42,019 nucleotides of DNA. Origin: Pseudomonadales bacterium. Its GTDB lineage: Bacteria > Pseudomonadota > Gammaproteobacteria > Pseudomonadales > Azotimanducaceae. Below, piece by piece: positions 6,427 through 40,652 of the stretch. Every line of letters starts with the position of its first letter. Positions within the stretch are counted from its first letter, which is position 1. The stretch is taken from assembly GCA_022827905.1 (NCBI GenBank), contig JAJEIQ010000046.1, positions 1 to 42,019 on the forward strand. The letters run 5' to 3'. Under the pieces are notes generated by a model. It ran no database searches and had not been told where the DNA came from. It saw nothing but the letters and a program-made list of their open reading frames with translations. Position numbers and translations under genes: made by a program.

Positions 6427-7830
6427 CTACGGCTTGTCAGCGGACAGCCGCCGTTGCGCCAACTCGCTTTCTATCCGGCTGACCAGCGCACCATCCAACC
6501 GGTAGAACAGGATGGCCGCAGCGCCCAGCAGGGAAAGCACGGCAGGGAACAGGGTGAACATCAGGCGGATGCCAAGCAGCGCCGATTCCGTCTGCGGCTG
6601 GTTGGCGATAAAGCCGAACAGGGCCAGGATGTAGCCCGCCAGCCCCGCGCCAACCGCCAAGCCCAGCTTGGCCGCGAAACCGCCTCCCGAGTAGATCAGC
6701 CCCGTGGTTCGCCGTCCACTTTTCCACTCGCCGTAGTCGGCGCAGTCGGCGTTCATGGCGAACACCAGCGGCGCCAACGGCCCAGCGATCAGAGAGGCGA
6801 GGCAGTGCACCGCAACCATCAGCCAGTACTGGTCGGCCGGGATAAAGAAGAACACCCCGGTAATCACTGCGCTGGCCACGGTCAGGGCAATCATCAGGTG
6901 CTGCTTTTCGAAACGCTGCGTCAGCGGGCGGGTCAAGGTTACGCCCAAGACCATGGCAACGGTGCCCAACGACATGAATATGGCGGTCATGTCGAAAATC
7001 GAGAATACCCATGTCCCGTCGTCGCCCACGTAGTACTTGAAGTAGTAGATCAGGCCGCCGTTGCGCACCGCCGTTTGCATCAAGGCGAAGATTCCCGACA
7101 CGAATAGGGCGATCCAAGGCCCATTGCGCGCCAGCGCCCCCAATTCCGCCTTCAGGTCCGGCTTCATCGGCGCCGAGCGAACGCGTTCCTTGGTGGCCGC
7201 GAACGTCCACCAGAAAAGGGCGACGGAAAGCACCGCGAACAGCATCATGGTCTGGCGAAAGCCCTCCGCCTCGTCGCCGCCACCGAGCATCTCCTGCAAC
7301 GGCCTAACGAATGTGAAGATCAACCATCCCGCGCCGAACGCGCAAACGAAACGATAGGCGGAAACCTTCACCCGTTCGTCGGACGAGGGCGAGATGACTC
7401 CCGTTAGCGCCGAATAGGGAATGTTGATGGCGGTATAGGCCAGCATCATCAGCGAGTAGGTGACATAGGCATAAACCAGCTTGCCGGTCGGCGAAAGGTC
7501 CGGGCCTAGGAACATGGCGTATCCCAGCAGGCCATAGGGCACCGCCATGGTCAGCAGGTAGGGCCGGAACTTGCCCCATCGCGTGTTGGTGCGGTCCGCC
7601 ACCAAGCCCATCGCCGGGTCGCTGAAGGCGTCGACCATCTTGGTGACAAGGAACATCGTGCCCACCGCCGCCGGCGCCAGGCCGAACACGTCGGTGTAGT
7701 AGTACAGCAGGAAGACGTTGAACGCCTGAAAGAAGAAGTTGGACGCGGCATCGCCCATGCCATAGCCCAGCTTTTCCGAAAACCTCAATTTTTCGACGGG
7801 CTGGGCCGGCCGCGAATCAATGGCACTCAT
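6427..7830 (-). CDS. Sugar:cation symporter, GPH/MelB type (MFS fold)
   Basis: The open frame continues far upstream, but the first sensible start is the ATG at 7828-7830 with AGGAACC before it, giving 467 residues, normal for the glycoside-pentoside-hexuronide family. The family signature is clear at residues 64-90 ('KMVDAFSDPAMG...RWGKFRPY'); Asp67 and Asp71 match the cation-site aspartates of MelB. About 11-12 hydrophobic segments span the inner membrane. The role is proton- or sodium-coupled uptake of a mono- or disaccharide. It is the last gene of the glycan locus, 41 bases after the halogenase homologue, and should import the sugars released from the glycan taken up by the TonB receptor. 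Confidence 0.88.
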   Translation of the reverse strand: MSAIDSRPAQPVEKLRFSEKLGYGMGDAASNFFFQAFNVFLLYYYTDVFGLAPAAVGTMFLVTKMVDAFSDPAMGLVADRTNTRWGKFRPYLLTMAVPYGLLGYAMFLGPDLSPTGKLVYAYVTYSLMMLAYTAINIPYSALTGVISPSSDERVKVSAYRFVCAFGAGWLIFTFVRPLQEMLGGGDEAEGFRQTMMLFAVLSVALFWWTFAATKERVRSAPMKPDLKAELGALARNGPWIALFVSGIFALMQTAVRNGGLIYYFKYYVGDDGTWVFSIFDMTAIFMSLGTVAMVLGVTLTRPLTQRFEKQHLMIALTVASAVITGVFFFIPADQYWLMVAVHCLASLIAGPLAPLVFAMNADCADYGEWKSGRRTTGLIYSGGGFAAKLGLAVGAGLAGYILALFGFIANQPQTESALLGIRLMFTLFPAVLSLLGAAAILFYRLDGALVSRIESELAQRRLSADKP

Positions 7831-7871
7831 AGATTGGTTCCTGTTTTTTGTTTTGCGGTGCAGGCCGGCTG

Positions 7872-9362
7872 TCAGCCGGGCGCCGCCTTGCAGTAGTGAT
7901 CGATGAAGCGCTGATGCTCGGGGAGCTGGCTGACGAAGCGGTCCGTGGCGCCGTGTATGCCGGTGAGGAACTGCGTCAGTTCGTCGTCGCTCATCATGTT
8001 GACGATCGGGTGGTACTGCTCCGGCGTGAGCCCCTGGCCGAGCATCACTTGGATCCAGGAGTTCTCGCCGAACAGCTCCGTCGGCACCTTGAACACCCGG
8101 CCCGCCTGCTTGAACAACTCGATGCGGTGCCGGAGGGAATCCGGTATGTCCATGCTGCGGCAATGGCGCCAGAACGGCGTGTCCGTGCGCTCGGTCACAT
8201 GGTAGTGCAGGACGATGAAATCCCGGACGTTGTCGATCTCGAAGCGCATCTGGTTGTTGAACTCCTCGACATCCGGTTGCCGGATGCCGTCGTAGGGAAA
8301 CATCTGCAGCAGCCGGATGATGGCGCGCTGAATGAGATGGATGCTGGTGGACTCCAAGGGTTCGATGAACCCGGAAGACAACCCCATGGCCACGCAGTTC
8401 CCGTGCCAGTGCCGCCGCCGCGTACCGGTCTTGAACTTGATCACCCGCGGTTCCGTCAGCACCCGGCCCCGCACGTTGCCGAGCAGGCGCGCCACGGCTT
8501 CGTCATCGGACCAGTGTTCCGAACTGAACACCACGCCGTTGCCGACCCGGTGCTGCAGCGGAATGCGCCACTGCCAACCGGCCTCGCGGGCAATGGCCCG
8601 GGTGTACGGAATGGGCGGCTGCACGGACTCGGTCTGCACCGCGACAGCGCTGTCGCAGGGCAGCCAGTGCCGCCAGTCCTCGTAACCCGCCTGCAGGGTT
8701 TGCTCAATCAGCAGCCCGCGAAATCCGGTGCAGTCGATGAACAGGTCCCCCTCCACAAGCTGCCCTGACTGCAGGCGCAGGCCGGTGATGAAGCCGCTGC
8801 CCGGATCCTGCTCCACCCGGTCGATGCGGCCCTCCTGCCGCACGGCACCATGCTCTTCGGCCATGCCGCGCAGGAAGCGCGCATACAGGGAAGCATCGAT
8901 GTGGTAGGCGTAGTTGAGACCCTGTTTGGCCATGACCGCGAAGCGGTTCCGCTTGGCAGCCAACCATTCCTTGCAGTATTCGCCGAAGTCCCGGCTGATG
9001 CCCATTTTCCGGCCCTTGAGCCAGAAGTGCTGGAATCCGGCGGCCCAACTGTCCTGGCCCGTCCAGCCAAAGGAGTGGATGTAGTCCTCCCCGACATCAC
9101 GCCAGTTCTCGAACGAGATGCCCAGCTTGAAGGTGCCCTGCACCGCCCGAAGGAAGTCCTGCTCCTTGATCTTGAGCAGTTCGTGCAAGGTGAGGAGCGT
9201 CGGAATGGTCGCCTCGCCAACGCCGACCGTGCCGATCTCGTCGGACTCCACCAAGGTGATGTCCAGCGTCTTGCCCAAGAGCTTGGCGAGCGACGCAGCG
9301 GCCATCCAGCCGGCGGTGCCGCCGCCGGCAATCACGACCCGGTGAATCTTTGTGTGCTGCAA
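7872..9362 (-). CDS. Flavin-dependent halogenase homologue 1 (tryptophan halogenase family)
   Basis: The 496-residue protein is a full-length family member. It has the N-terminal FAD motif GGGTAGW (13-19), the catalytic lysine Lys79 in 'TFKLGISFENWR', the halogenase signature WQWRIP (263-268), and Glu337-Ser338 in 'EPLESTS', equivalent to the catalytic Glu-Ser pair of PrnA. All residues needed to make hypohalous acid and pass it to lysine appear present. No natural-product genes are nearby: it sits between a cupin-like protein and a sugar symporter in a glycan operon. Relatives from Brevundimonas and Xanthomonas halogenate free indoles in vitro, with no agreed physiological role. No signal peptide is seen; it needs reduced FAD from an unlinked reductase. 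Confidence 0.9.
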   Translation of the reverse strand: MQHTKIHRVVIAGGGTAGWMAAASLAKLLGKTLDITLVESDEIGTVGVGEATIPTLLTLHELLKIKEQDFLRAVQGTFKLGISFENWRDVGEDYIHSFGWTGQDSWAAGFQHFWLKGRKMGISRDFGEYCKEWLAAKRNRFAVMAKQGLNYAYHIDASLYARFLRGMAEEHGAVRQEGRIDRVEQDPGSGFITGLRLQSGQLVEGDLFIDCTGFRGLLIEQTLQAGYEDWRHWLPCDSAVAVQTESVQPPIPYTRAIAREAGWQWRIPLQHRVGNGVVFSSEHWSDDEAVARLLGNVRGRVLTEPRVIKFKTGTRRRHWHGNCVAMGLSSGFIEPLESTSIHLIQRAIIRLLQMFPYDGIRQPDVEEFNNQMRFEIDNVRDFIVLHYHVTERTDTPFWRHCRSMDIPDSLRHRIELFKQAGRVFKVPTELFGENSWIQVMLGQGLTPEQYHPIVNMMSDDELTQFLTGIHGATDRFVSQLPEHQRFIDHYCKAAPG

Positions 9363-9393
9363 GGCTTGCCTCCTGAAACTCTTACAAGTCGGT

Positions 9394-10410
9394 TCAGCGA
9401 TTCAGCTTGTTAAGCAGGTCGGCGCGCAGGCGCCTTGCCGCCGCCTCGTCGAGCGGAGCGAGCCAGCCCCTGCCCGCTTCGGGAATGTGCTCGCAAGTGG
9501 ACTCGTCGGCATTGAACACATAGTGATCGAACAGGCTGCGGCAGGCCTCCCTCTGTCGTGGGGGAAGATCCCTCATGGCGAGTATGGCGTGCAGCAGGGC
9601 TTCCGACGGCGATCCCATCGCCGCCGGCGTCGAACACCACCAGTAGTTGACCAACAGGTTGAACGGTGCGGTCGATTCAATGTGATGCCACCACATGCTC
9701 GGAATGAAAACCGCATCGCCCGGCTGGAGCACGGCGGTCTGACCGTATTTGATTGCATCGGCAAACTTGGGAAATCGCTCGAAGTCGGGCGCCGCGAAAT
9801 CGACCAAGCTGATGGCTTGACCCGAGGGCGTCATGTCCAGGGGGCCAACGTACAGGTTGCCGACCTGATCCGGCGGAAACAGCGTAAACCGGCGCTGCCC
9901 GGAAACCACGCAGGCCAGGTTGTCGGGGAAATCGTAGTGAGCGGAAATTCGGGTCCGGTTGCCGAGCCAGAAACTCACGAGCGCATCGTCCGCCGGCAGG
10001 CGCACATCGTTTTGCGAGCGGAATCCGGGCAGCCACTCATCGACCGGCGTTGAACCCACGTAGATCGTCGCCATGCGCTCATCGCGTACCGGTTCGGTGA
10101 GCTTCTCGAAGATCTGGGGCAGGGTGGCCTTGCCGGCGCGGAAGTTGAACCCGGTGAACTCCGGGTTGTAGAAAAACCGACCGTCGATCGACGCATCCCC
10201 AACGTAGGCGGTCACCGGCGCTTTCGACCAGAATCGGGACAGGTAGCGCGCCGCCGATTCGGCCGAGGCAGCGCATTCGCGCACCGCTGGCCAGCCGCTC
10301 ACCAGCCCGTTCAGGCGCACGGGCGCATCGGAGTCGAACACCATTGCGGGGACCAGGCCGTCCGCGCAATCCAAGGCCGGCATCGGCTTGAGATCAGAGG
10401 TCCAATCCAC
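9394..10410 (-). CDS. Cupin-like (Cupin_8 / JmjC-type) putative Fe(II)/2-oxoglutarate oxygenase
   Basis: This 338-residue protein has the Cupin_8 fold. Its probable iron ligands are His158 and Asp160 in 'ISAHYDFPDN', and His242 in 'PSMWWHHIES'. Family members include protein and tRNA hydroxylases. The segment 'FWLGNRTRISAHYDFPDNL' followed by 'SGQRRFTLFPPDQ' is typical of the subgroup next to SapC and halogenase homologues in proteobacterial carbohydrate loci. The start overlaps the end of the SapC gene by 17 bases. The substrate is unknown; hydroxylation of a protein or small molecule linked to the transport system is only a guess. Confidence 0.82.
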   Translation of the reverse strand: MDWTSDLKPMPALDCADGLVPAMVFDSDAPVRLNGLVSGWPAVRECAASAESAARYLSRFWSKAPVTAYVGDASIDGRFFYNPEFTGFNFRAGKATLPQIFEKLTEPVRDERMATIYVGSTPVDEWLPGFRSQNDVRLPADDALVSFWLGNRTRISAHYDFPDNLACVVSGQRRFTLFPPDQVGNLYVGPLDMTPSGQAISLVDFAAPDFERFPKFADAIKYGQTAVLQPGDAVFIPSMWWHHIESTAPFNLLVNYWWCSTPAAMGSPSEALLHAILAMRDLPPRQREACRSLFDHYVFNADESTCEHIPEAGRGWLAPLDEAAARRLRADLLNKLNR

Positions 10411-11143
10411 TGGCCTGCCCGCCTTCCAATGATTGGTTTTTCAACTCCACCAAGCGTTGAATGTTGGCCATGGATGCCAAGGCCATGAACATCGGCGCCA
10501 GAAAACCCTCCTGGTTGAATTCGCCCAACGTCCCTCCCGACAGCGCCTGCACCTTTTCTTCGTTGAGGCAGTGATAGCCGATCAACTGGTGCCGGGAGCC
10601 GTCCTTGAGTTCGACCTCCAGGGTCACGGCCTCGATCAGGTCCTGCTCAGCAAGGGCCCGGGTAAAGGCCTTGTTGTGCTCGATGCCCGCGTAGATGGTC
10701 TCCAGCAGATCGGCCGCCTCCTCCAGGAAGGGCGTGCGCCCTCCCAGAGGTTGGAACAGAGCTTCCCCGGCATCATTGCTCACTCGCGGATGCGCCATGT
10801 CCAGGGACAGCACGCGCGTTCGCCCCGGATTGCCCGGTTCCTTGGAGTCCTGGAATCCGATCAGGAACGGTTCGCGCCGCACCATTGCCGGTATGTAGCC
10901 AGCGTGCCAGCCGTCCGCGTCGAGAAAGAGGTTCTCCTTTTCCTCAAAGCCAAACAGCGCCACCGGGAAAAAGCCGCCGTTCGCGTCCTGCTGGAAAAGG
11001 ATCGGGTAGAACGCCTGCACGTTGCGGAACTCGAAAGGAAAGGTCAAGACCTGCATGACATCGTCGCCGTACCGGGCGGACCGCTCGGTGATGATGCGCA
11101 CGTCCTGGTGATCGACGTTGTTCAGCAGCGCGAAATCGGCCAC
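10394..11143 (-). CDS. SapC family protein
   Basis: The 249-residue protein matches the SapC family in length and layout: an N-terminal 'MADFALLNNVDHQDVRI', a central block 'FYPILFQQD...FPVALFGFEEKENLFLD' and 'WHAGYIPAMVRREPFLIG', and a C-terminal region ending 'NIQRLVELKNQ'. The name comes from an S-layer-associated protein, but no enzymatic role is established and no signal peptide or membrane segment is seen. It follows the second halogenase homologue after only 2 bases and overlaps the cupin gene, so the three are very likely made together. In many proteobacteria this set accompanies a TonB receptor for carbohydrate. Confidence 0.85.
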   Translation of the reverse strand: MADFALLNNVDHQDVRIITERSARYGDDVMQVLTFPFEFRNVQAFYPILFQQDANGGFFPVALFGFEEKENLFLDADGWHAGYIPAMVRREPFLIGFQDSKEPGNPGRTRVLSLDMAHPRVSNDAGEALFQPLGGRTPFLEEAADLLETIYAGIEHNKAFTRALAEQDLIEAVTLEVELKDGSRHQLIGYHCLNEEKVQALSGGTLGEFNQEGFLAPMFMALASMANIQRLVELKNQSLEGGQASGLDL

Positions 11144-11145
11144 GG

Positions 11146-12714
11146 CTACCCGCCCTCCCCCGCCCGTTGGGCGATGGCGCCAATCAATTCGCGGTTCGAC
11201 GGCAAAACGCGGGCCATGCGTGCGCCCTGCTCGCGCACACTGTGGAACACCTCGTCCGCCCGCTCGCGCAGGCGGCCGTATGAGACCCTGTCAGCACCGG
11301 TGTGGCAGGGCCTGAACCCCATGCCGTACAGAACGTACTGGTAGCTGGCCGAAGGGAACAGCTCGTCCAGCCGCGGCGCATCGTCGTGCCAAGGCGTCTG
11401 CTGCCGCCACAGGTTGATTTTTTCACGCAGCCCCTCCGGGCACGAGTCCGTTGCCCGGTTGTCCAGCCAGTACTCGCTGTCGTCGCGGCGGCTGGTCGCG
11501 TAGTGCAGCTTGAGAAACTCAACCACCCGCTCCCAGTGGTAGCCCATCTTCCCATTGAAGCGCCCGGCAACCACCTCCATGAGCCGCCGGTCCCTCGGCA
11601 GTTGCCCGGCGATGATCGACGCCGACTGCTCGATCAGGGCGAGTGCCGAGGCCTCCAGCGGTTCCACGAAACCGGCGGACAAACCCACGGCAACGCTGTT
11701 CCTGACCCAAGGTGTCTTCCGATAGCCCGGCTCGAAGGCTATGGTCCGAGTGTTGAGCGCGTCCGGATCGATGCCCGGCGAGGTCCGCTCGACATAGCGC
11801 CGGAGCGCCCGTTGCGCCGCTGCCTCGTCGATGTGCGCGCTGGAGTACACGTGGCCTAGGCCCCTGCGGGAGCCGAGCCCGATGTCCCAGATCCATCCGG
11901 CGGACTGCGCGGTGGCGCGAGTCACAGATGCAATGGCTTCCCCGTCCGCGGCATAGGGCACCTGGACGGCAATCGCCCGGTCGTTGAACAGCAGGCTGCG
12001 CACGGAGTGGAAGGATTCGCCGTAGTGCTCGCCGATCAACAAGGCCCGCTGGCCAGTGCAATCCACAAACAGGTCGCCTTCGATGCGCTCGCCGGTGTCA
12101 AGCGCCAACGCCGCGACATCGCCGTCCGCGTGCGGCTCGACATGGCGGACATTGCCCGCGACGTAGCCTACGCCGAGCTTCTCTACCGCATGCCGGTGCA
12201 GCAGCTTAGCGAATCGGCCCGCGTCGAGGTGGTAGCCGTAGTTGACGGTAAAGGCGTATTCGGGGGTCGCCAACTGCTTGGGCGCAAGTCCCTCCGCGAT
12301 CACCCGGGCCTGGGGGGTGACGAACTCAGCGAAAGGCGTCCCTCGGCCCTGTTCCAGCCAGTACTCGGCGGGATTTAGGCTCGAGTACTCCAGCGGCAGG
12401 CTGAAAGGATGGCAATAGGCGTCGGTCTCATCGCCGCCATCAGCCCATCCGGTGAATAGGGTGCCCTGCTTGAAGCTGGCGTCAGTGGCCTGGACCAACT
12501 CGTCTTCAGAGAGGCCAATGCGCTGCAGGGTCGAGCGCATGGACGGCCAAGTCCCTTCGCCGACGCCGATGGTCGGGATGTCGGGTGACTCCACCAGCAC
12601 CACCCGCAGCGGGCTATGCTCGCCCCTGGGATGCTCGGCCGCAATCCGATTGGCGGTTATCCAGCCGGCGGTGCCGCCCCCCACAACCACGACCGTCCGG
12701 GTTGGCCGATTCAT
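11146..12714 (-). CDS. Flavin-dependent halogenase homologue 2 (divergent active site)
   Basis: This 522-residue protein shares the halogenase fold with its neighbour but is clearly diverged. The FAD motif GGGTAGW (12-18) and the lysine Lys82 in 'SFKQGTLFTGW' are kept. The WxWxIP signature has become WIWDIG (274-279), and the catalytic-pair region is 'EPLEASA', keeping Glu354 but replacing the usual Ser with Ala355. It may therefore halogenate poorly, act on a different substrate, or work as a flavin monooxygenase or scaffold. It comes 87 bases after the TonB receptor gene and 2 bases before SapC. Confidence 0.87.
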   Translation of the reverse strand: MNRPTRTVVVVGGGTAGWITANRIAAEHPRGEHSPLRVVLVESPDIPTIGVGEGTWPSMRSTLQRIGLSEDELVQATDASFKQGTLFTGWADGGDETDAYCHPFSLPLEYSSLNPAEYWLEQGRGTPFAEFVTPQARVIAEGLAPKQLATPEYAFTVNYGYHLDAGRFAKLLHRHAVEKLGVGYVAGNVRHVEPHADGDVAALALDTGERIEGDLFVDCTGQRALLIGEHYGESFHSVRSLLFNDRAIAVQVPYAADGEAIASVTRATAQSAGWIWDIGLGSRRGLGHVYSSAHIDEAAAQRALRRYVERTSPGIDPDALNTRTIAFEPGYRKTPWVRNSVAVGLSAGFVEPLEASALALIEQSASIIAGQLPRDRRLMEVVAGRFNGKMGYHWERVVEFLKLHYATSRRDDSEYWLDNRATDSCPEGLREKINLWRQQTPWHDDAPRLDELFPSASYQYVLYGMGFRPCHTGADRVSYGRLRERADEVFHSVREQGARMARVLPSNRELIGAIAQRAGEGG

Positions 12715-12801: not shown

Positions 12802-15768
12802 TTAGAACTTGTATCTGAGACCTAGGTTGTAGCGCGGCCCGTTCTGGCCCGCGAACAGCGTCTGCAGCTTGTCCCGGCCATACACGTGCGTGGTCTCGTC
12901 GGTGAGGTTGAGCACATCGAAGTAGGCCTGTATCTGGTCGGTGAACCAGTAGCTCACGCTAAGGTCCAGTTGCTGGTAGTCGGCGGTGTGGGTGGGCGGC
13001 CCGGCGCCCACGTTGGCCTGGCCGGTGCCGGCCAGGAAGTCGTCCCGCCAATTCCACGCCACTCGCACACTGAGGCCATTTTTGTCGTAGAAGCCGATCA
13101 GATTGGCGGAGTCGCTCAGGCCGGTGAGCACGAACTGCTGCTCAAGGCTGAAGTTGTCGTAGCCGACGTCCGCCTCCACCAAGGTGGCGTTGGCGATGAA
13201 GCCGAAGCCGCTGTCCCCGAAGGTGTGCTGGATGACGAACTCCCAGCCCTTCATGGTGGCCTGCTCGATGTTCACCGGCACCGTGAGGTTGAAAGGCGAG
13301 GCCGGATCCCGGCCCGCCACGCCGGAGATGATGCCGTTGGCGGCATCGACACCGGGTGCATCCGCGCGGTTTTCGAGAATCCAACCATACAGAGTGCCGC
13401 CGTCCGAGCTGCCCGTGGCCGCACGCGCCTCGTCGCCGAGCGGGCCTAGAGCGGGATGGGGCAAGCCGAAGGTGTCCTCCACCACGGAGGCGGTGCCGAT
13501 AAAGTTGTCCACGTCCTTGTGGAAGTAGCCGACGGCAACGTAGCTGTCCTCGCCGTAGTAGTACTCGAAGGAGACATCAATGTTCTGGGACTCGAACGGC
13601 AGCAGGTTGGGGTTGCCCCGATTGCCAGTGCCGCCATCGACCCGCAAAAGCGAGTTGATGGTCTGGCCACCTTGGATGTCGCCGTAGTTGGGCCGGGTCA
13701 TGGTCTCGCTGTAGGAGAAGCGCCCGACCAAGCTGTCCGTGAAGTCGATCTTCAGGTCGAAGTTCGGCAGGAGGACGTCGTAGTCGCCGGAAAGCTCCGT
13801 GAAGTCCGGGTCGCCCTGCACGGCGGTCAGCTCGTTGCCAGCCACCCAGTTGATGGCCGTGTAGGCGGGCGACAGGGCCTGGGAGTCGATGTCGGTCTGT
13901 TCGTAGCGCAGCCCCGCCCTAATGTCCACGTAGGTCGGCCCGAGTTCGGTGCCCATGTTCAGTTGGAGGTAAGCCGCTTGGGACTCCTCCTGGGTGCGCC
14001 GGTCGGAGGTGAAATTGCTGGAGGTGCATAAGCCCGTGCCGCAATCGCCCATGTCCGTCAGCATGAAGGTGGTCGCCTCGCCGGAAGCCATTAGGGCCTC
14101 AGTGCGGTCGATCACCGCACTCATGTCCCAAGTGTAGTAGTCCGTTTGCCGCCGCCCGTCATCGCCGCCGGGAATCTCGTCGAAGGCGTCCGAAGCGGAA
14201 GCCGGGGACAGCAGGTCGGCGATGGCACCCGGTTGGGTGACGCCGCCCCAAGCGTCGCGCTGCACCACGGAGCCGGCTGAGCGATTATTGACCTCGGTGA
14301 GCTGGACCCCGAAGTCGATGCTCTCGATGAAGTCGAACTCGAACTCGAAACTGCCCGCCAGCTTGGCTTGTTCAATCCCCATCTTCGCGTAGTCGTTCAC
14401 GAACACGCTGCCGGTGACGATCATGTCGTCCGGCGACAAAGGATTGCCCAACGTAAGTTCCAGAACGGGCAACTCCTCGTTGAAGTAGCCCGTGGTCCGG
14501 TCGCGGCTGAAAGCCGCCATGGACAGCAGGGCGGAGTTGCCGAAGGGGCTGTCCGGACGGTTCCTGGCGGTGGAGTCGTGGTAGTCGAACTCCAGCGAAA
14601 GTCGGTCGGTCACGTCCCAGATCAGGTTAAGCCCGGTGGAGCCGTTCTTGGTCTTCCAAGCATCCTGTCCGGCACCCATAGAGTAGTCGCTATTGGGGAG
14701 GTTTTCGGTGTAGGTCAACGGCGTGGCTTGGGGGCCGTCGGTCCAGAGCGTTTCCTGGCCCCCAAAGTTGAACCAGGCCGAGAGGTTGTTGTAGGTGCGC
14801 TCCAGCTCCACTTCGGAGTAGGTGTAGTCCAAGGTTGCCACCAACCGCTCACTCGGCTGCCACTGCAGGGTCAACTGGCCGTTGGTGCGCACTCGGTCGT
14901 ATTCCGCAAGTTCGTAGCCGATGTTCTGCGGCACGGAGTACAGGTCGTTGTCGCCCGGGCGATTTTGCTGGTTGGGGTCGCCCGCCGGGGGAATGCCGCC
15001 CCATTCGGACCGGCCGACGCCGCACCAGCAGTTGTTCACGTCGCCAGGGAATGTCCGCCAGCCGCCAACGCTGGCCGTGTTGGCCCCGTTGTTGCGCTCT
15101 TGGCGCACGGCGCTCAAGGCAATGCCAACGGTGTCCTCCGCAAAGGTGTTGGAAAACAGGGCCGAGATCTCCGGCGTTGCGTCCTTGCCCTCCTCGGTGG
15201 AGCTGTCCATCAGGGCGCTCGCGGCGGCGGTGAAGGTCATGCCGGGGTTGTCCAGCGGGCGCGTGGTGCGGATGTTGATGGTGGAGCCGATGCCGCCGGT
15301 GGGCACGTTCGCTTGGCCGCTCTTGTACACCTCCACCGCAGCGATGCCTTCGGAGGCTAGGTTGCCGAAGTCGAAGGAGCGGCCCAATCCCGAGGCTGTG
15401 GGCATCTGGCGGCCGTTCAGGAGCACGAGGTTGAAGTCGGGCCCGAAGCCGCGGACCGTGACCCGCGCGCCTTCGCCGCGTTCGCGATCAATGGAGACGC
15501 CGGTGATGCGCTGCAGGGACTCGGCCAGGTTGCTGTCCGGGAAGTCGCCGATGTCCTCCGCGGTGATCGCATCGACCACGCCATCCCGATTTCGCTTCAG
15601 ATCCCTCGACTGCTTGAGGCTCTGGCGGATGCCGACGACGACGACCTCCTCGATCACCTCGCCCTGCGCGGCGGCTCCTGCATCCTCCTGCCCATGGGCA
15701 ACGCCGCCGGCTATGGCCAGCGACACGGCGGCCGCGACCGGCGTCTTCTTGAATACATCGGTAGGCAT
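12802..15768 (-). CDS. TonB-dependent outer-membrane receptor, Xanthomonas-Caulobacter carbohydrate type
   Basis: The 988-residue protein has a signal peptide (about 1-26, ending AHGQ), a TonB box region 'EVIEEVVVVGIRQSL', a plug domain with 'DSNLAESLQRITGVSIDRE' and 'RVTVRGFGPDFNLVLLNGR', and a long beta-barrel ending in the aromatic 'LGLRYKF' expected for outer-membrane insertion. It follows the TonB-Xanth-Caul pattern, whose members import oligosaccharides. A GGAGA site lies 8 bases before the ATG. Its promoter lies in the 3' end of the GH3 gene and carries two LacI-type operators. With the GH-A and GH3 enzymes, an imported beta-glucan oligosaccharide is the best guess. Confidence 0.93.
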   Translation of the reverse strand: MPTDVFKKTPVAAAVSLAIAGGVAHGQEDAGAAAQGEVIEEVVVVGIRQSLKQSRDLKRNRDGVVDAITAEDIGDFPDSNLAESLQRITGVSIDRERGEGARVTVRGFGPDFNLVLLNGRQMPTASGLGRSFDFGNLASEGIAAVEVYKSGQANVPTGGIGSTINIRTTRPLDNPGMTFTAAASALMDSSTEEGKDATPEISALFSNTFAEDTVGIALSAVRQERNNGANTASVGGWRTFPGDVNNCWCGVGRSEWGGIPPAGDPNQQNRPGDNDLYSVPQNIGYELAEYDRVRTNGQLTLQWQPSERLVATLDYTYSEVELERTYNNLSAWFNFGGQETLWTDGPQATPLTYTENLPNSDYSMGAGQDAWKTKNGSTGLNLIWDVTDRLSLEFDYHDSTARNRPDSPFGNSALLSMAAFSRDRTTGYFNEELPVLELTLGNPLSPDDMIVTGSVFVNDYAKMGIEQAKLAGSFEFEFDFIESIDFGVQLTEVNNRSAGSVVQRDAWGGVTQPGAIADLLSPASASDAFDEIPGGDDGRRQTDYYTWDMSAVIDRTEALMASGEATTFMLTDMGDCGTGLCTSSNFTSDRRTQEESQAAYLQLNMGTELGPTYVDIRAGLRYEQTDIDSQALSPAYTAINWVAGNELTAVQGDPDFTELSGDYDVLLPNFDLKIDFTDSLVGRFSYSETMTRPNYGDIQGGQTINSLLRVDGGTGNRGNPNLLPFESQNIDVSFEYYYGEDSYVAVGYFHKDVDNFIGTASVVEDTFGLPHPALGPLGDEARAATGSSDGGTLYGWILENRADAPGVDAANGIISGVAGRDPASPFNLTVPVNIEQATMKGWEFVIQHTFGDSGFGFIANATLVEADVGYDNFSLEQQFVLTGLSDSANLIGFYDKNGLSVRVAWNWRDDFLAGTGQANVGAGPPTHTADYQQLDLSVSYWFTDQIQAYFDVLNLTDETTHVYGRDKLQTLFAGQNGPRYNLGLRYKF

Positions 15769-15850: not shown

Positions 15851-15864
15851 TGATAACGCTGTCA
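15851..15864 (-). promoter_or_regulatory. LacI-type operator A upstream of the TonB receptor
   Basis: The 14-mer, minus strand TGACAGCGTTATCA, differs at two positions from the perfect palindrome found before the GH-A gene. It covers the expected transcription start, just downstream of the -10 box at 15871-15876, and overlaps the TGA of the GH3 gene (15862-15864). Confidence 0.7.
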
Positions 15865-17688
15865 TCCCGCCTTATAGTGCATGCCGACAGCGTTGTCAAA
15901 CCCATTGGGCGCATAGCTCAATCCGAACCCCTCAGGGAACTGCAAGTCGCCATCGGCCGGATCGCCATTGCCCGGCCAAGGCAGCGGCAGACGGCCCTTG
16001 AAGTCACTGTCGCCCATCAGGACTTCGGCAACGCCCCGGCCCTCGGTTCCCGGGAGCCAAGCGGCTACGAACGCCGTCGAAGCGGCCAGTTCCCGGCCGA
16101 CCGCCAGCGGCCTGCCGGAAACCAGGACAACAACCACGGGTATGCCCTTGGCGGCGATGCGGCGGATGCAAGCCAGGTCCTCCGGGTGGGTTTCCGCCAG
16201 TTCCAGCGAGCGCGCGTAGGGTTCGAGCGGATTCATGAGGCCATTGACCATGGAACCGGCTTCCACCACGAGGTCATCGCCGGAACGGATGTCGCCGAAG
16301 CCCTCTGCGTAGGGCGTCTCGCCGATCACGACCAGTGCAACGTCGTGTTCATTCGGGTCGGCGTCCTCACCCGTCCCGTCCGCGCTGAGCCGCGCATTGG
16401 GCGCAAGTTCGCGAATGCCCTCCCAGATGGAGGTTCCCTCTATGGTGTCGTTGCCGGTCTCGCCCTGCCAGCTTCGAGTCCAGCCCCCGCACTGGTGGCC
16501 AAGGTTGTGGGCGTTCTTGCCGGCCACCAGCATCCGTTGATCCCGCCTGAGCGGCAGCAGATCGCCTTCATTTTTCAGCAGCACCAGCGATTCCCGCACC
16601 GCACGCCGCGCCACATCCCGATGCTCCGCGCAGCCGGTGCAACCGGTGCCCGCGCCTGACCGCCGCGTCGGCCTCGGCATATCGAACAACCCGTAACGCA
16701 ATTTTGTGCGCAGGATGCGCCGCACCGCATCGTCGATGCGGGCGGCGCTCACATGCCCAAGCCGAACTTGGCCTTCCAGGGCTTCGATGAACTCCCGCCA
16801 CCGCTCCGGGACCATGAACATGTCGAGCCCGGCATTCACCGAAAGGCGAATGGCGGTGCCGTAGTCCTCATCGAGGTAGTTGATGCCATCCCAATCGGAT
16901 AGCACCAAGCCATCGAATCCAAGCCGCTCCTTGAGCAGATCGGTCACCAGGAAGCGGTGTCCATGGCACTTCTCGCCGTTCCAGCTATTGAAGGACACCA
17001 TCAGCGTCATGACACCGGCTTGAAGGGCCGGGTAGTATGGCGCAACGTGGGTTCTCTCCAGTTCTTCCCAGGGGAGCGTGGTCTCGCCCTGGTCCATCCC
17101 GTGCCGGGTGCCGCCATCCCCCGCCCAATGCTTGACGCAACCGATGATGCCTTCAGCCTGCAGGGCCTCGACATAGTGCCGCCCATAGGAAGCGACTCGC
17201 TCCGGATCGTTCCCAAAACTCTCGTAGGTGCGCCCCCACCGGCAGTTCTGCACCACCGCCAAGGTCGGGGCAAAGTTCCAGTCCAAGCCGCTGTCGAGCA
17301 TCTCCCTAGCCGTGACTCGAGCCGCTTCGGCGACCAATCCGGCATCTCCCGCGGCGCCAAGCCCAATGTTGTGGGGGAAAATCGTGGCGCCCTGAACGTT
17401 GTTGTGGCCATGCACGGCGTCGCAGCCATAGAGAATCGGGATGCCCAAGGCGTCGTCATCGACCACCGCGGCCTGCCAAAACGCATCGTTCATCCGCACC
17501 CAGTCCTCAGGCGCATTGCCGCCCGGGTGGGAGCCGCCGCCGGAGAGCACGGCGCCGAGACCGTAGCGCGTCACATCCGCTGGCTCCACCGACAGGCGCT
17601 CCGCCATGGCCATCTGGCCAATCTTCTGGCGAAGGCTCATCCGCTTCAGCCATTTCGTGACGACGGCTTCTTGGTCCGCAATCAACAT
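15862..17688 (-). CDS. GH3 beta-glucosidase / exo-beta-1,3-1,4-glucanase-like
   Basis: The 608-residue glycoside hydrolase resembles the barley ExoI type. Domain 1 (TIM barrel) includes 'YGCDAVHGHNNV', 'CVKHWAGDGGT' (184-194) and the nucleophile Asp265 in 'GLVLSDWDGI'. Domain 2 has 'CGGWTRSWQGE' and 'GETPYAEGFGD', where Glu462 (or Glu457) is the likely acid/base. It should release glucose from non-reducing ends of beta-glucan oligosaccharides. No signal peptide is seen, so it may be cytoplasmic unless the start is misplaced. The ribosome site TAGGAG contains the stop codon of the upstream GH-A gene, so the two are co-translated. The last codons hold the receptor promoter. Confidence 0.92.
   Translation of the reverse strand: MLIADQEAVVTKWLKRMSLRQKIGQMAMAERLSVEPADVTRYGLGAVLSGGGSHPGGNAPEDWVRMNDAFWQAAVVDDDALGIPILYGCDAVHGHNNVQGATIFPHNIGLGAAGDAGLVAEAARVTAREMLDSGLDWNFAPTLAVVQNCRWGRTYESFGNDPERVASYGRHYVEALQAEGIIGCVKHWAGDGGTRHGMDQGETTLPWEELERTHVAPYYPALQAGVMTLMVSFNSWNGEKCHGHRFLVTDLLKERLGFDGLVLSDWDGINYLDEDYGTAIRLSVNAGLDMFMVPERWREFIEALEGQVRLGHVSAARIDDAVRRILRTKLRYGLFDMPRPTRRSGAGTGCTGCAEHRDVARRAVRESLVLLKNEGDLLPLRRDQRMLVAGKNAHNLGHQCGGWTRSWQGETGNDTIEGTSIWEGIRELAPNARLSADGTGEDADPNEHDVALVVIGETPYAEGFGDIRSGDDLVVEAGSMVNGLMNPLEPYARSLELAETHPEDLACIRRIAAKGIPVVVVLVSGRPLAVGRELAASTAFVAAWLPGTEGRGVAEVLMGDSDFKGRLPLPWPGNGDPADGDLQFPEGFGLSYAPNGFDNAVGMHYKAG
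15871..15899 (-). promoter_or_regulatory. Sigma-70 promoter of the TonB receptor operon, inside the GH3 gene
   Basis: On the minus strand a perfect TTGACA (15894-15899), a 17-base spacer and TATAAG (15871-15876) form a near-consensus promoter within the last codons of the GH3 gene. The leader to the receptor ATG would be about 95 bases. Operators A and B cover its start site and -35 box. Confidence 0.72.
15885..15898 (-). promoter_or_regulatory. LacI-type operator B over the -35 box of the TonB receptor promoter
   Basis: The minus strand reads TGACAACGCTGTCG, two differences from TGACAGCGCTGTCA, and overlaps the -35 hexamer. Its centre is 34 bases from that of operator A, about three helical turns, which would allow both sites to be bound together. 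It lies within GH3 coding sequence. Confidence 0.68.
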
Positions 17689-17697
17689 CCGTCACTC

Positions 17698-19002
17698 CTA
17701 GGTGCGATCAGCGATCAGGAACGGGACGTTGGCGTGCGCAACACCCCCTTCGCCATCGCCCACGTAAACGTATAGGCGGTAAGCGCCCGGTTCCTCCGGC
17801 GCACGCCAAGTGATCTGTCCGGACCGATTGTCGGGATTCGGCAGACGGTGCTCTTCGGGGACATACTCCAAGTCTCCACCGGACTGGGTGGCTTCGCTTT
17901 CCCGCATCACTCGCCAGTCGTAGGTCAGCGCATCCCGGTCCGGGTCCATGGCCCGCACCGACGCCACGTAGGATCCGCCCGGCAGCAGGCGCACATCGTC
18001 CCTCGCACGTTGGCCGTCCACCAGCAGGTCGCCCAGTTGGGGTGCCCGATTCGCCGGCCATCGGCCGGTCCAGATGCGTTGCAGCGCATCCGCCGCCTCG
18101 GTGCGCCGGCCGTCTGCCGTAAACACCCCGTACCAGGTGGGCGTGCGCTCCTGCTTCTGGCCCCACAGAAACGCATAGTTGCCGATGAGCCTTCCGGCCA
18201 TCGGCGCCAGCACCTGCTCGTGTCCTTCCAGGAAGCGACGGGCCTTTTCCGTGCTCGTGGGCTCAATGGGCGCTCCCCAAGCCGTCCGCGGCACTTCCCA
18301 ATGGCCGATGGTGCCCCACTCCGTGACCATCAACGGCATCTCCATGCGAATGTCCGCCAAGGCCTGCGGCAGATCGAACAGTCCCCCATAGACTTGGACG
18401 CTCAGGAAATCCAGGTCCGGCGCGCGCGCCTCGATCACCCGCGCCAGTGACCGGTCAATCCCCGCCGTGGTCGTGGTGGTCGGATGATTGGGATCGAGTT
18501 CGTGGATCATCATCGAGATGTCGTTCACGGCGTCGTAAACGGCCGGGTTGCGGTAGTCGTGGTTCAGCTCATTGCCGATGATCCAGACCAGCAGTGCGGG
18601 ATGATGCCGATGCGCTAGAACCTCGGCCCGCACGCGATTGAACTGCTCGTCGACCGCCGATGGATCGCTGTAGTCGAAACCATGCCGTTCCCGCTCGAGG
18701 TCGAGGCACAACGCCACCGTGAGACCGAGTTCCTGGGCACGATCAAGAACGCTTCCGTCGCCGACCGCCCAGTTGCGCACCGAGTTGGCCCCATGACGGG
18801 CGAGCGAGCCGAGATCGTCCGTGGACTGGGTTCCGGCGCCCCGGACCACATAGGGTTGGCCGCCCCGGAACAGCTTGAAGTTGCCGGCCTCTCCCTTAAT
18901 TTCCACGGGCACCGGGGCAGATTGCGCAACAACGGCGGCGCTGATCATTGATACGCCGGTCAGGCACAGCAACGCCCGCAGGGCCGATGCTCGTACGCCC
19001 AT
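17698..19002 (-). CDS. Secreted glycoside hydrolase, clan GH-A (GH2/GH158-like TIM barrel)
   Basis: The 434-residue protein starts with a signal peptide (about 1-27, ending VVAQS). The barrel that follows has the clan GH-A catalytic pair: acid/base Glu145 in 'VWIIGNELNHDY' and nucleophile Glu228 in 'LMVTEWGTIG'. After about residue 335 comes an Ig/PKD-like beta domain ('RAMDPDRDALTYDWRV' ... 'APEEPGAYRLYVYVGDGEGGVAHA'). Opening residues such as 'FKLFRGGQPYVVRGAG' recall GH2 and endo-glucanase relatives, but I cannot fix the family number. It is the first gene after the perfect LacI operator and is followed by GH3; with GH3 it suggests beta-glucan breakdown. The ribosome site AGGGAGG lies close to the ATG. 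Confidence 0.8.
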   Translation of the reverse strand: MGVRASALRALLCLTGVSMISAAVVAQSAPVPVEIKGEAGNFKLFRGGQPYVVRGAGTQSTDDLGSLARHGANSVRNWAVGDGSVLDRAQELGLTVALCLDLERERHGFDYSDPSAVDEQFNRVRAEVLAHRHHPALLVWIIGNELNHDYRNPAVYDAVNDISMMIHELDPNHPTTTTTAGIDRSLARVIEARAPDLDFLSVQVYGGLFDLPQALADIRMEMPLMVTEWGTIGHWEVPRTAWGAPIEPTSTEKARRFLEGHEQVLAPMAGRLIGNYAFLWGQKQERTPTWYGVFTADGRRTEAADALQRIWTGRWPANRAPQLGDLLVDGQRARDDVRLLPGGSYVASVRAMDPDRDALTYDWRVMRESEATQSGGDLEYVPEEHRLPNPDNRSGQITWRAPEEPGAYRLYVYVGDGEGGVAHANVPFLIADRT

Positions 19003-19039: not shown

Positions 19040-19069
19040 GTTTTACCAAGTCGCTGACAGCGCTGTCAA
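19040..19069 (-). promoter_or_regulatory. Sigma-70 promoter of the GH-A / GH3 genes
   Basis: The minus strand has a perfect TTGACA (19064-19069), an 18-base spacer and TAAAAC (19040-19045), about 40 bases upstream of the ATG at 19002. The -35 box overlaps the LacI-type operator, so bound repressor would block polymerase. Confidence 0.6.
19055..19068 (-). promoter_or_regulatory. Perfect LacI-type operator (TGACAGCGCTGTCA)
   Basis: A perfect 14-bp palindrome with the central CG step typical of LacI-family sites overlaps the -35 box of the GH-A promoter and the TGA stop of the lacI-type gene itself (19066-19068). Two imperfect copies control the TonB receptor promoter. The adjacent LacI protein is the obvious ligand. 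Confidence 0.78.
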
Positions 19070-20118
19070 TGATCCAGTGGTGTGACTGGAACCGGCGGCG
19101 CGGTGGATTTGCGGATGACCACCTCGCATTCAAACGGCTGGTCGGACGAATGCACTGCCTCGCCGTTCAACTTGTCGATCAGGAGCTTGGCGGCGGTTTG
19201 GGCCATCCGCACGATGGGTTGGCGCACGGTGGTTAGCGGCGGCCACATGCGGGAGGCGATCTGGGTATCGTCAAAGCCGACAACGGACAGGTCGCCGGGC
19301 ACGGATAGGCCCCGCTCCCGCGCCTCGAACAGCACGCCAGCGGCCATGTCGTCGTTGCTCGCGACGATGGCGCTCGGTGGTTTCGGCAGATCGAGCAGTT
19401 CGCTCGCCGCCGTCTTGCCGGAATCGAAATCGAAGTAGCCTTGTCGAACCAAGAGGGCCGAGAACGCCAGGCCATGCCGTTCCAAGGCACGCCGGTAACC
19501 GGAAAATCGCGCCGCGCTCGCGCCGTGGTCCGGATGTCCCTCGATAAAGCCGATGGCTTGGTGTCCCTGTTCGATCAGGTACTCCGTAAGGGAACAGGTC
19601 GCCTCCCCGTCATTGCAACTCACGTTGATCTCCTCCGGCCGTGGATCCTTGGGCGCTATGGCGGCCAGGGGGATGCGCAGTTGATGCAGCAACGCCGTGA
19701 CGGCGGCAACGTCTCCCAAGGGGGCAGGCAAAACGATTCCTTCGACGCGCGCCTGGGTGGCGAACTCCCTGACCCGCTCCGTGATGTCGGGGTTCGGCAG
19801 AGTGAGAGGACAGAGCAGAAGGGAGTAGCCCCGCGCCTCGCAAGCCTCAAGCGTGCCGTCGAGCACATCCTTGAGATAGTTGAACTCCTGGGCATTCTCG
19901 TAAACCAGCCCCACCAAGCGCGAACGCTTGCCCGACAGTTCCCGGGCGGCCGCATTGGGCTTGTAGCGCAGTTCACGAATGGCGCTCAGCACCTTTTCGC
20001 GCGTTGCATCGCGCACGTTGGATTCGTCGTTCACCACCCGCGAGACGGTCTTTATCGAAACGCCCGCCTGCTCCGCAACATCAAAAATAGTTGCCTTCTT
20101 GGGACCGGCTTCAGCCAA
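19066..20118 (-). CDS. LacI-family transcriptional regulator of the glycan locus
   Basis: The frame is open upstream, but the right start is TTG at 20116-20118: it has GGAGGG with 6-base spacing and is followed by the usual N-terminus (AEAGPKKATIFDVAEQAGVS). This gives 350 residues. The helix-turn-helix and hinge are clear (TVSRVVNDESNVRDATREKV, then 'YKPNAAARELSG'), followed by a periplasmic-binding-protein-like effector domain with 'FIEGHPDHGASAARFSGY', 'AIVASNDDMAAGVLF' and 'VVGFDDTQIASRMWPPLTTVRQP'. It should repress both glycan promoters until a sugar is bound. The TTG overlaps the tilS stop (TTGGCTGA), so its translation is tied to the housekeeping operon and it is probably made constitutively. 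Confidence 0.92.
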   Translation of the reverse strand: MAEAGPKKATIFDVAEQAGVSIKTVSRVVNDESNVRDATREKVLSAIRELRYKPNAAARELSGKRSRLVGLVYENAQEFNYLKDVLDGTLEACEARGYSLLLCPLTLPNPDITERVREFATQARVEGIVLPAPLGDVAAVTALLHQLRIPLAAIAPKDPRPEEINVSCNDGEATCSLTEYLIEQGHQAIGFIEGHPDHGASAARFSGYRRALERHGLAFSALLVRQGYFDFDSGKTAASELLDLPKPPSAIVASNDDMAAGVLFEARERGLSVPGDLSVVGFDDTQIASRMWPPLTTVRQPIVRMAQTAAKLLIDKLNGEAVHSSDQPFECEVVIRKSTAPPVPVTPLDH

Positions 20119-21346
20119 ACTTTTCCCTCCAGTTCCAAATCGCTCGCCAGCGCGATTCCGTCTTCGGCTCATCACGGGCAGCATCCGCGATGCCTGGAAC
20201 GGCGACCAGCGCATCGCCACTGTACAGCAATGGGTAGCTGGATCTTAGCCAAGGCGGTAGGTTGACATCCTGCATCGCCTTCTTGAGCGATCGCGACCCT
20301 TGGGCTGTCCGAACCCTTTCGCCGCCGCGGCGGAACCGGATGGTCAGGGCGCCTTTTGCGCAAAAGCCGCCGCTGGCGGCCTTTTCGACCACCAGTTCGC
20401 CATGGGGCAGCCGCAACACCCCGGGTGGCTGCAGTTCATAGCAGGCTGCCAGCGCCGGTGGCGGCAATACGTAGTGGGCCGCGCCGCGCCAGCGGCGCAA
20501 ACTCCCGTGGCGCAATCGCAGTTCCGGTTGGGCGTCCGGCGGAGCGTCGAATTGGGCTGCGAATTCCGCCAGCGCCCGCTCGCTGACGCCTTGCTCATCG
20601 AAGCGGGCCAGCCAAGCGCGCAACGCCAGCGACCGCAGCTCGGGCGGCAAGTCTTCCAAGGGCAACGCTTCGCGGTTCAGCAGATGGCGCAGCAGCGCTT
20701 CGGCGTCGGCCCGGGCCTCCCCCGCATGCGCCAAGGCCGCGTCTGCGCTGGGCCAGCGCTCCTTCAGGCGGGGCAAAACCTCGCGGCGCAGGAAGTTGCG
20801 GTCGAATGCAGTGTTGGCGTTGCTGGGATCTTCCAGCCAGTCAACGCCCAGTTCCTTGGCGGCGGCGCGCAGCGCGTGCTTGGGGAGGCCGAGGAATGGA
20901 CGCAGCAGCACCGCCCCACCGGCCAGGTGCCGGGTGCGGGGCATGGCTCGAGCGCCGCGCCCTTGGGCGAGCCGCATCAGCACCGTTTCCGCCTGGTCGT
21001 GCTGATGGTGGGCCAGCAGCAATAGATCGCCCGCGCCCAACAGGGCATCGAAGGCTTGGTAGCGCGCGCGCCGGGCTTGTGCTTCGACGTTGCCAGGCGC
21101 CACTTCGACGCGCTGGCTCAGCAGTTCGATGCCATTCGACTTGCAGGCGGCTTCGCAGTGTGCCTGCCACCGGTCGGCGTCAGGATGCAGGCCGTGATTG
21201 ATGTGTACGGCCTTGACCGGGGGCGCGACGCGAACGGCGGCGTGCAGAAGAACGGTGGAATCGAGGCCGCCAGAGTAGGCTACCGCCAAGCGCCGGCGAT
21301 CAAAACCTGCCAGTTCAAGCCGCAGGTGGCGGAGCACCGCATTCAC
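20111..21346 (-). CDS. tilS: tRNA(Ile)-lysidine synthase
   Basis: TilS converts C34 of the minor tRNA-Ile (CAU anticodon) to lysidine using ATP and lysine, which is essential for reading AUA. The P-loop SGGLDS lies at about residues 22-27, followed by 'VHINHGLHPDAD' and 'AHHQHDQAETVLMRLAQG', then the TilS-specific middle and C-terminal domains. The open frame extends 87 codons upstream into dnaE, but the GTG at 21344-21346 overlaps the dnaE stop as GTGA and gives 411 residues starting [15 protein letters not shown], normal for the family. Many gammaproteobacteria have accA between dnaE and tilS; here it is absent. Confidence 0.94.
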   Translation of the reverse strand: MNAVLRHLRLELAGFDRRRLAVAYSGGLDSTVLLHAAVRVAPPVKAVHINHGLHPDADRWQAHCEAACKSNGIELLSQRVEVAPGNVEAQARRARYQAFDALLGAGDLLLLAHHQHDQAETVLMRLAQGRGARAMPRTRHLAGGAVLLRPFLGLPKHALRAAAKELGVDWLEDPSNANTAFDRNFLRREVLPRLKERWPSADAALAHAGEARADAEALLRHLLNREALPLEDLPPELRSLALRAWLARFDEQGVSERALAEFAAQFDAPPDAQPELRLRHGSLRRWRGAAHYVLPPPALAACYELQPPGVLRLPHGELVVEKAASGGFCAKGALTIRFRRGGERVRTAQGSRSLKKAMQDVNLPPWLRSSYPLLYSGDALVAVPGIADAARDEPKTESRWRAIWNWREKFG

Positions 21347-35160: not shown

Positions 35161-35775
35161 ATGCCGAAACTGCTTCACATTCAATCCAGCCCCAACATCG
35201 AGAACTCGGTGTCTCGCTCGCTTTCCGATCAGTTCGTCAAGAGATGGGCCGAGCATCACCACAATGTGGCAGTTGAAGTGCTTGATCTTGCTGCTGAGCC
35301 TCTTCCGCACTTCGGGCCAGCAATTCTACAGGCCGCTGTGACGCCACCCGAGTCGATGAGCGACGAAACACGCGCTGCAGTGGCGTTGTCCGATCGGCTC
35401 ATCAGGCAGTTGGAAGATGCGGACATCCTGGTCATCGGTTCGCCGATGATCAACTTCACGATATGCAGTCAGTTGAAGGCTTGGTTCGATCACGTGACGA
35501 TCGCCGGCAGGACGTTCGAGTTCTCCGCCCCTGGGGTCGCCCGGGGCCTGCTTTTCGGCAAGAAGGCGTTTGTCATTGAAGCGCGTGGCGGGGAGTACAC
35601 CGACCTGCCGTTCAGCGCGTTCGACTTCCAGGAGCCTCTGCTGAAGGCGTTGTTGATGTTCCTAGGCATTTTCGATGCGTCCTTCATTCGGGCCGAAGGG
35701 ATGCGTCAGCGCGAGGAGGACACCGACAGCATCATCCGCAATGCCCAAGACGTCGTCTCCAGGGTGGCTGCATGA
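35161..35775 (+). CDS. FMN-dependent NAD(P)H oxidoreductase, AzoR-like flavodoxin fold
   Basis: The 204-residue protein matches the AzoR family from end to end: 'LLHIQSSPNIENSVSRSLSDQFV' (phosphate-binding loop), 'DILVIGSPMINFTICSQLKAWFDHV' and 'GKKAFVIEARGGEYTD'. AzoR proteins are homodimeric quinone and azo-compound reductases using NAD(P)H. The start at 35161 has AGGACAGGG upstream; a TTG 39 bases earlier lies at the -10 box and is unlikely. Its ATGA overlap with the next gene suggests it works with that flavin monooxygenase, either supplying reduced FMN or reducing a quinone product. Confidence 0.87.
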   Translation: MPKLLHIQSSPNIENSVSRSLSDQFVKRWAEHHHNVAVEVLDLAAEPLPHFGPAILQAAVTPPESMSDETRAAVALSDRLIRQLEDADILVIGSPMINFTICSQLKAWFDHVTIAGRTFEFSAPGVARGLLFGKKAFVIEARGGEYTDLPFSAFDFQEPLLKALLMFLGIFDASFIRAEGMRQREEDTDSIIRNAQDVVSRVAA

Positions 35776-40550: not shown

Positions 40551-40652
40551 TCGAGTGCCCTCCATATATTCCGGTTTCACCATCCGCAAGCGCGCTACGT
40601 CAAGGATTGAACATTGATGGTCTTGGCGCTCCCTCCTCTGCCCGCAATCTGG

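Follow-up and report, generated by a model that had tools for sequence, protein, structure and literature searches.

The 42,019-nucleotide stretch of Pseudomonadales DNA analysed here (contig JAJEIQ010000046.1, positions 1 to 42,019; hereafter the window) carries on its minus strand a TonB-dependent receptor gene followed closely by genes for two halogenase-family flavoproteins, a SapC protein and a cupin. The receptor (12802-15768; 988 aa), assigned to TIGR01782 by profile (638 bits, cut-off 310) and placed further by receptor trees, is the first gene of this module. Behind it lie HAL2 (11146-12714; PF04820, E 6.4e-119), a homologue of the 2pyx-type flavin-dependent halogenases (FDHs); SapC (10394-11143; PF07277, E 2.5e-63), a 249 aa protein of the module-type clade described below; a putative FIH-like iron- and 2-oxoglutarate (2OG)-dependent oxygenase of the Cupin_8 family (9394-10410; E 1.1e-66); and HAL1 (7872-9362, listed start TTG; PF04820, E 3.2e-194), an FDH of the Xcc4156/BrvH type. 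In the direction of transcription the order is LacI, the gene at 17698-19002, GH3, receptor, HAL2, SapC, cupin, HAL1 and GPH symporter, with spacings of 93 nt between GH3 and receptor, 87 nt between receptor and HAL2, 2 nt between HAL2 and SapC, 31 nt between cupin and HAL1 and 38 nt between HAL1 and the symporter; SapC and cupin overlap by 17 nt. Profiles and coordinates confirm the arrangement described in an earlier note on this DNA, which had the four proteins packed with near-zero spacing between a TonB receptor and a sugar symporter. The four-gene block that it proposed as the unit stands, but its starting point moves upstream, as the receptor is both the first gene and the most constant upstream partner. 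Judged by eye, the receptor has a signal-peptide-like N-terminus while none is apparent in HAL1, HAL2, SapC or the cupin, so the latter four are probably cytosolic. A search of the source genome recovered a single SapC and two strong halogenases, all at this locus, and three far weaker PF04820 matches (<=98 bits) away from it.

The two halogenases are as unlike each other as had been claimed. HAL1 best matches Xcc4156 in the PDB (6y1w, 680 bits), followed by BrvH (6frl, 483 bits), while the matches of HAL2 are 2pyx (516 bits), 9ltb (464 bits) and 9lu2 (391 bits). Alignments of 57 of the 60 module HAL1 and 46 of the 48 HAL2 sequences, in which four loci are counted twice in the group of other halogenases, place the two in separate clades, neither of which includes an FDH from a locus lacking SapC. 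K79 and E337 of HAL1 are kept in at least 97% of its sequences, and the GGGTAG and WxWxIP motifs in 57/57. In HAL2 the catalytic residues K82 and E354 are likewise conserved at >=97% across the 46 sequences; the WxWxIP motif is absent, its place being taken by WxWxIG in 42/46 and WxWxIA in 4/46. The roles of these residues are assigned partly from general knowledge of the family and partly from the account of BrvH in PMC5945002, according to which BrvH brominates free indole and does not act on free tryptophan. Xcc4156 is reported to have carried out exclusively bromination on model substrates, acting on indole and its derivatives, and to ignore free tryptophan; its active site is described as open and as perhaps accepting "possibly even peptides", the native substrate being given there as unknown (PMC7336383). 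HAL1 is a close homologue of both enzymes, with the same GxGxxG, catalytic lysine and WxWxIP features, and a second FDH gene lies upstream of brvH as well (PMC5945002). The main texts of PMC5945002 and PMC7336383 mention neither TonB nor SapC. For the HAL2 homologues 2pyx, 9ltb and 9lu2, all deposited as "tryptophan halogenase" structures, a literature search by entry code, judged by titles, returned no paper on function.

The label "cupin oxygenase" given earlier to the third enzyme holds at the level of the family and can be narrowed to an FIH-like protein. By sequence, its best solved relative is FIH (E ~5e-22 over an alignment of ~120 residues), and JMJD5 and JMJD7 are among the further solved relatives, all of the JmjC type. 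The metal-binding HxD...H triad (H158, D160, H242) is invariant in 40/40 aligned sequences, as in the FIH/JmjC oxygenases. The module protein differs from these in being bacterial and in replacing a lysine by Arg173, which is also invariant and aligns with the lysine of FIH that we take to bind 2OG. In nine loci (L123-L129, L131 and L133) a second Cupin_8 paralogue lies on the opposite strand after HAL1.

SapC matches PF07277 over the whole profile (positions 1-220 of 220; 214 bits, cut-off 28.9), and its predicted structure is confident (predicted local distance difference test, pLDDT, 92.6). Neither sequence nor fold gave a significant PDB match, the best fold match having an E of 0.089. The module SapC proteins form a clade of their own that includes one solitary SapC, from L072. 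A SapC alignment took in 50 rows, L104 having been dropped for a stop within its range. Residues conserved at >=90% in both the module and the solitary group are H12, E38, N71, W79, Y83, P85, P92, F93, D115 and S224. The nearest relatives of the window SapC, 76-92% identical, come from metagenome-assembled genomes of Gammaproteobacteria/Pseudomonadales in the SB, RHO and jk series (L096-L102); we take the SB and RHO series to be sponge-associated.

To see how often these families occur together, we surveyed other genomes starting from SapC. In a class-wide draw of 274 genomes SapC was present in 40 and a strong FDH (E<=1e-60, here and below) in at least 12, with both in at least 7 genomes against 1.75 expected (p 4e-4); at most five PF04820 candidates were scored per genome, so the FDH counts are lower bounds. 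Four SapC sequences of the module type were then used to scan named genomes, and profiles built on the proteins of the window to annotate the neighbours. This gave 63 loci, whose hosts we assign, from general knowledge, to the gamma-, beta- (Duganella) and alphaproteobacteria (Sphingomonas, Hankyongella, Kordiimonas, Henriciella, Ponticaulis). A cupin follows SapC in 62/63 of these loci and an FDH in 59/63, HAL2 lies just upstream of SapC in 47/63, and a homologue of the window receptor lies upstream in 58/63, that is, in every one of the 58 with at least 2.5 kb of upstream sequence. Where cupin, HAL1 or receptor is missing the contig ends, the one exception being L139 (Cellvibrio mixtus), which lacks HAL1. 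Among the carriers, Simiduia aestuariiviva (L122) has both halogenases, and Sphingomonas caeni (L148) and Kordiimonas gwangyangensis (L138) have no HAL2. The earlier note had named independent scattering of the families as the result that would count against it; instead they travel together, and recurrence in 63 named loci indicates that the four-gene arrangement is not due to chance. These observations strongly support the view that the four proteins are a unit tied to a TonB receptor. The genes of the L156 module, from Pseudoxanthomonas sp. NC8, are split into several open reading frames (ORFs), which suggests decay or sequencing error.

A ribosomally synthesized and post-translationally modified peptide (RiPP) or other natural-product cluster was also considered and rejected. 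No precursor-peptide gene fits between the operon genes, as the largest gap is 93 nt (a statement that covers the intergenic space of the operon), and the identified recurrent neighbours are sugar genes, with no pathway genes among them.

The same association is seen when the search starts from the receptor. We compared a receptor profile with 398 genomes of the phylum at E<=1e-200, scoring at most two receptors per genome, and obtained at least 52 matches in 36 genomes. For the 49 receptors taken with ~7 kb of downstream flank (leaving aside those of the window and of genome G012), SapC and FDH genes follow in 34 loci, 32 of which also have the cupin. Within five genomes, SapC adjoins 7/7 receptors of the SapC-linked clade and 0/23 other TIGR01782 receptors (Fisher 5e-7, with G012 contributing the best 13 receptors listed). 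The receptor is, moreover, the only exported protein that we found constantly encoded with the module, and among the 32 loci with all genes its pairwise distances correlate closely with those of HAL1 (r 0.97), SapC (0.95) and cupin (0.92). For GH3 the correlations in the same loci are far lower (0.48 with the receptor, 0.43-0.48 with the module), although paralogy makes GH3 an imperfect control. The receptor trees were built from frames chosen by hidden Markov model and omit receptors outside 850-1200 aa, so that of the 59 receptors in the named loci and the window 51 were used. The first tree holds 54 distinct module receptors among 56 such rows and the larger tree 88 among 90 (L129=L174, L143=L167 and L279=L290 are duplicates, and the second receptor of G621 is absent from the larger tree). 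The receptor model itself (pLDDT 86.6) matches other TonB receptors in fold, and the best 50 matches, to siderophore, heme, transferrin, B12 and pyrroloquinoline quinone receptors, gave no clue to the ligand.

SapC also occurs apart from the module, and there it keeps different company. Of the 48 SapC loci from the class draw (L036-L083), 40 have no window-type halogenase alongside, and in 24 of these 40 a giant ORF (>=1000 aa, Cys-poor and rich in G/N/D/T/S) lies nearby. On matched contigs such an ORF was found at 16/20 SapC loci and in 1/20 control stretches 30-60 kb away (p 2e-6), the composition criterion having been fixed after the solitary loci had been seen; for any ORF of >=1000 aa the figures are 26/40 SapC loci and 8/20 controls. 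When seven of the giant neighbours were compared over their full length with Pfam, two had a two-partner secretion (TPS) domain, one RTX repeats and one DUF5649, and three had no match. The L067 neighbour, which has a TPS domain, falls outside the composition criterion, and that of L040 matched no family above cut-off. A ShlB-type neighbour cluster is present in 8 SapC loci outside the module, and some solitary SapC genes lie near two-partner secretion (ShlB, TPS) or FecR-domain genes. These observations suggest that the general role of SapC concerns large exported surface proteins, of which the module receptor would be one client.

In the reading that we favour, tentatively, the four proteins serve as an accessory module dedicated to a single clade of TIGR01782-type receptors. 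In its favour we count the association found from SapC and from the receptor alike, the co-divergence, the variable catabolic neighbours beside a constant receptor type, the giant neighbours of SapC, the kinship of the cupin with FIH and JmjC proteins, the open active site of Xcc4156 and the lack of room for a precursor-peptide gene between the operon genes. LacI-type control would switch on module and receptor together. SapC, lacking an apparent signal peptide, would recognise the receptor polypeptide before export, whereupon the FIH-like oxygenase would hydroxylate it and one or both flavin halogenases would brominate or chlorinate an aromatic side chain. The receptor would thus be modified before its insertion into the outer membrane, and the modification may tune ligand binding or assembly. 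That the receptor is modified, in what sequence the steps occur and what they bring about is what we infer; the conserved gene unit, the co-divergence with the receptor, the intact catalytic residues and the genetic link between SapC and giant proteins are observed directly. Taken more broadly, the module most likely modifies either the receptor or the receptor's ligand.

Several observations weigh against receptor modification. In the search from the receptor, 13 of the 49 had no module gene within ~7 kb downstream, one (L263) had FDHs without SapC and one (L242) had only the cupin. Twelve of the 13 module-less rows, comprising eleven distinct sequences, group together with support 1.0 in a clade that lies inside that of the module receptors. 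As all 11 genomes of these sister receptors carry SapC and FDHs elsewhere, it is possible that the module acts on them in trans. The genome of L242 (G652), a clade receptor accompanied by the cupin only, has SapC and no FDH at E<=1e-60, and L057 (G167) has the module with no adjacent receptor of the module type. L252 (G553) is a further exception, a receptor alone in a genome whose full module lies elsewhere (L243). Two tryptophans, W332 and W507, are kept in 56/56 module receptor rows and in 20% and 28%, respectively, of 25 others. We nevertheless rejected them as a marker of the halogenation site, as the module-less sisters mostly share both (W332 in 11/11 and W507 in 9/11 distinct sequences) and loop alignments in this region are unreliable; this outcome tells against receptor modification in a simple form. 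Soil or freshwater genera, in whose habitats bromide is scarce, are among the hosts. Finally, the phylogenies of receptor, module and host are confounded with one another.

The chief rival, doubtful in our estimation, is that the module yields, by synthesis or conversion, a small aromatic compound (a halogenated indole, tryptophol or peptide) which the dedicated receptor imports or senses, with SapC as a carrier or structural partner. A special ligand would equally yield a dedicated receptor clade, and the characterised relatives act on small molecules, BrvH on free indole (PMC5945002) and Xcc4156 on indole and its derivatives (PMC7336383). Receptors can also be paired with FDHs alone: in L084-L088 and L091, TIGR01782-type receptors stand beside one to three FDH genes in the absence of SapC and cupin, which makes this a pairing akin to the module yet distinct from it. 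However, no family for the biosynthesis of an aromatic product recurred among the identified neighbour clusters (those in fewer than four loci being mostly unidentified), and this rival leaves both the FIH-like oxygenase and the link of SapC to giant surface-type proteins unexplained.

A further alternative, which we regard as distinctly unlikely, is that the enzymes act on some other exported protein or peptide whose gene lies elsewhere, such as a lipoprotein of the surface or a glycosidase that is secreted, the receptor being no more than a co-regulated partner. It draws on the occurrence of partial or separate sets: L078 and L081 have receptor, HAL2 and SapC without cupin or HAL1, and in 13 genomes 22/31 SapC genes have a strong FDH at a distance of <=1 kb, several with no module receptor found nearby when at most two receptors were scored per genome. 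Against this stands the receptor as the sole exported protein found constantly with the module. The SapC and FDH genes that lie <=1 kb apart and away from the module receptors found occur in G285, G387, G494, G549, G577, G579, G589, G595, G621, G627 and G634.

The earlier note had tied the unit to carbohydrate uptake, and had offered an aromatic glycan substituent, alongside the receptor and a signal, as its possible target. In the window, the genes upstream of the receptor encode a GH3 glycosidase (15862-17688), a protein whose glycosidase-like matches are all weak (17698-19002) and a LacI-family repressor (19066-20220), and downstream of HAL1 lies the gene of a GPH-family sugar:cation symporter (6427-7833; MFS_2, TIGR00792), all on the minus strand. 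Among the 63 loci, searched with tblastn, we found GH3 near 39, LacI near 23, GH16 near 11, a GPH symporter near 9, two other types of sugar transporter near 8 and 5, and glucokinase near 4; at least one of the seven sugar genes tested is present in 46/63. In single loci the module lies beside a chitinase of GH18 (L139), a cellulase of GH9 together with a MalT-type regulator (L146) or a regulator of the ROK family (L140). For L143 and L149 no sugar link emerged among the two neighbours scanned in each (20 proteins scanned overall). The tie to sugars holds for most loci. As the neighbouring sugar genes vary while the receptor type does not, the constant partner is the receptor and not one glycan enzyme. 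Modification of an aromatic substituent on an imported glycan or aryl glycoside is accordingly improbable, despite the frequency of GH3 and GH16: the neighbouring glycosidases differ (GH3, GH16, GH18, GH9 or none detected), and the module co-diverges much more with the receptor than with GH3. In addition, beta-1,3-glucan and chitin bear no aromatic groups. Of the targets first proposed, the receptor (which we favour) and a signal stay in play, and the glycan substituent is weakened.

Just as improbable is that the halogenase homologues no longer halogenate and that their part in a complex is now that of an oxidase or of a flavin-binding partner, a reading that could draw on the G or A, never P, after WxWxI in all 46 aligned HAL2 sequences and on the soil genera that general knowledge places among the hosts, but which sits poorly with catalytic Lys and Glu residues conserved at >=97% in both clades and with the in vitro bromination by Xcc4156, the close relative of HAL1 (PMC7336383).

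The placement of the module downstream of LacI operators, as proposed earlier, is borne out by operator-like palindromes upstream of both the receptor and the gene at 17698-19002. Two of them, at 15851 and 15885, 34 bp apart and with 2 mismatches each, lie upstream of the receptor (15851-15898), while a perfect copy, TGACAGCGCTGTCA (19055-19068; 0 mismatches), lies upstream of the 17698-19002 gene. In the window as a whole the motif has 7 matches at <=3 mismatches where 2.3 would be expected; 1/100 shuffles gave as many. One further match with 2 mismatches falls inside HAL1, at 8642. At least one site is present upstream of the receptor in 25/54 other loci, and two or more in 17, against a background of 0.029 sites per 330 bp elsewhere in the same 54 loci, many of which are close relatives and so not independent. 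Elsewhere in the window, a TonB receptor of another type (38289-40589) lies beside a cytochrome P450 (37068-38273) and an acyl-CoA dehydrogenase (35772-37004); this group seems to have no connection with the module.

These findings can be set beside two known kinds of locus. With its receptor, glycosidase, sugar transporter and regulator, the window has all the elements by which a carbohydrate-utilization (CUT) locus is recognised, and its LacI, GH3, TIGR01782 receptor and GPH symporter recall the CUT loci of Xanthomonas and Caulobacter. Campylobacter fetus SapC presumably belongs to PF07277. The main text of the 2007 CUT paper (PMC1790865) makes no mention of halogenase, SapC or cupin. In C. 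fetus, sapCDEF sits in the sap S-layer locus with the sapA/sapB genes (PMC4943207); here, too, SapC lies near genes for large surface-type proteins or a receptor, the difference being that module SapC accompanies a TonB receptor and halogenases. The parts of the module come from known families, and we regard the whole as a locus of the CUT type to which an accessory module has been added. No description of the four-gene module was found in the literature searched, and mention at the level of annotation is likely, as regulon databases presumably list "Trp halogenase/SapC/Pass1" genes beside TonB receptors.

A categorically new mechanism is possible. Its fullest form, which we consider a possibility on the doubtful side, would be a pre-export system of post-translational modification in which SapC, an adaptor with no known structural relative, delivers a TonB receptor of the outer membrane to a hydroxylase of the FIH kind and to a pair of brominating or chlorinating flavoenzymes, SapC proteins more broadly being client-specific factors for large exported surface proteins. 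BrvH and the brominating halogenases of Xanthomonas have been characterised without a known natural substrate, a peptide being merely suggested (PMC5945002, PMC7336383). The fixed partnership with one receptor clade, together with the link between SapC and giant proteins, makes the question of the halogenase substrate directly testable. We know of no earlier case of enzymatic halogenation of an outer-membrane protein, so a mark on the receptor, if real, would be the first, and it would give SapC a role. Modification of either the receptor or its ligand would, if true, provide the first plausible natural target for these orphan halogenases.

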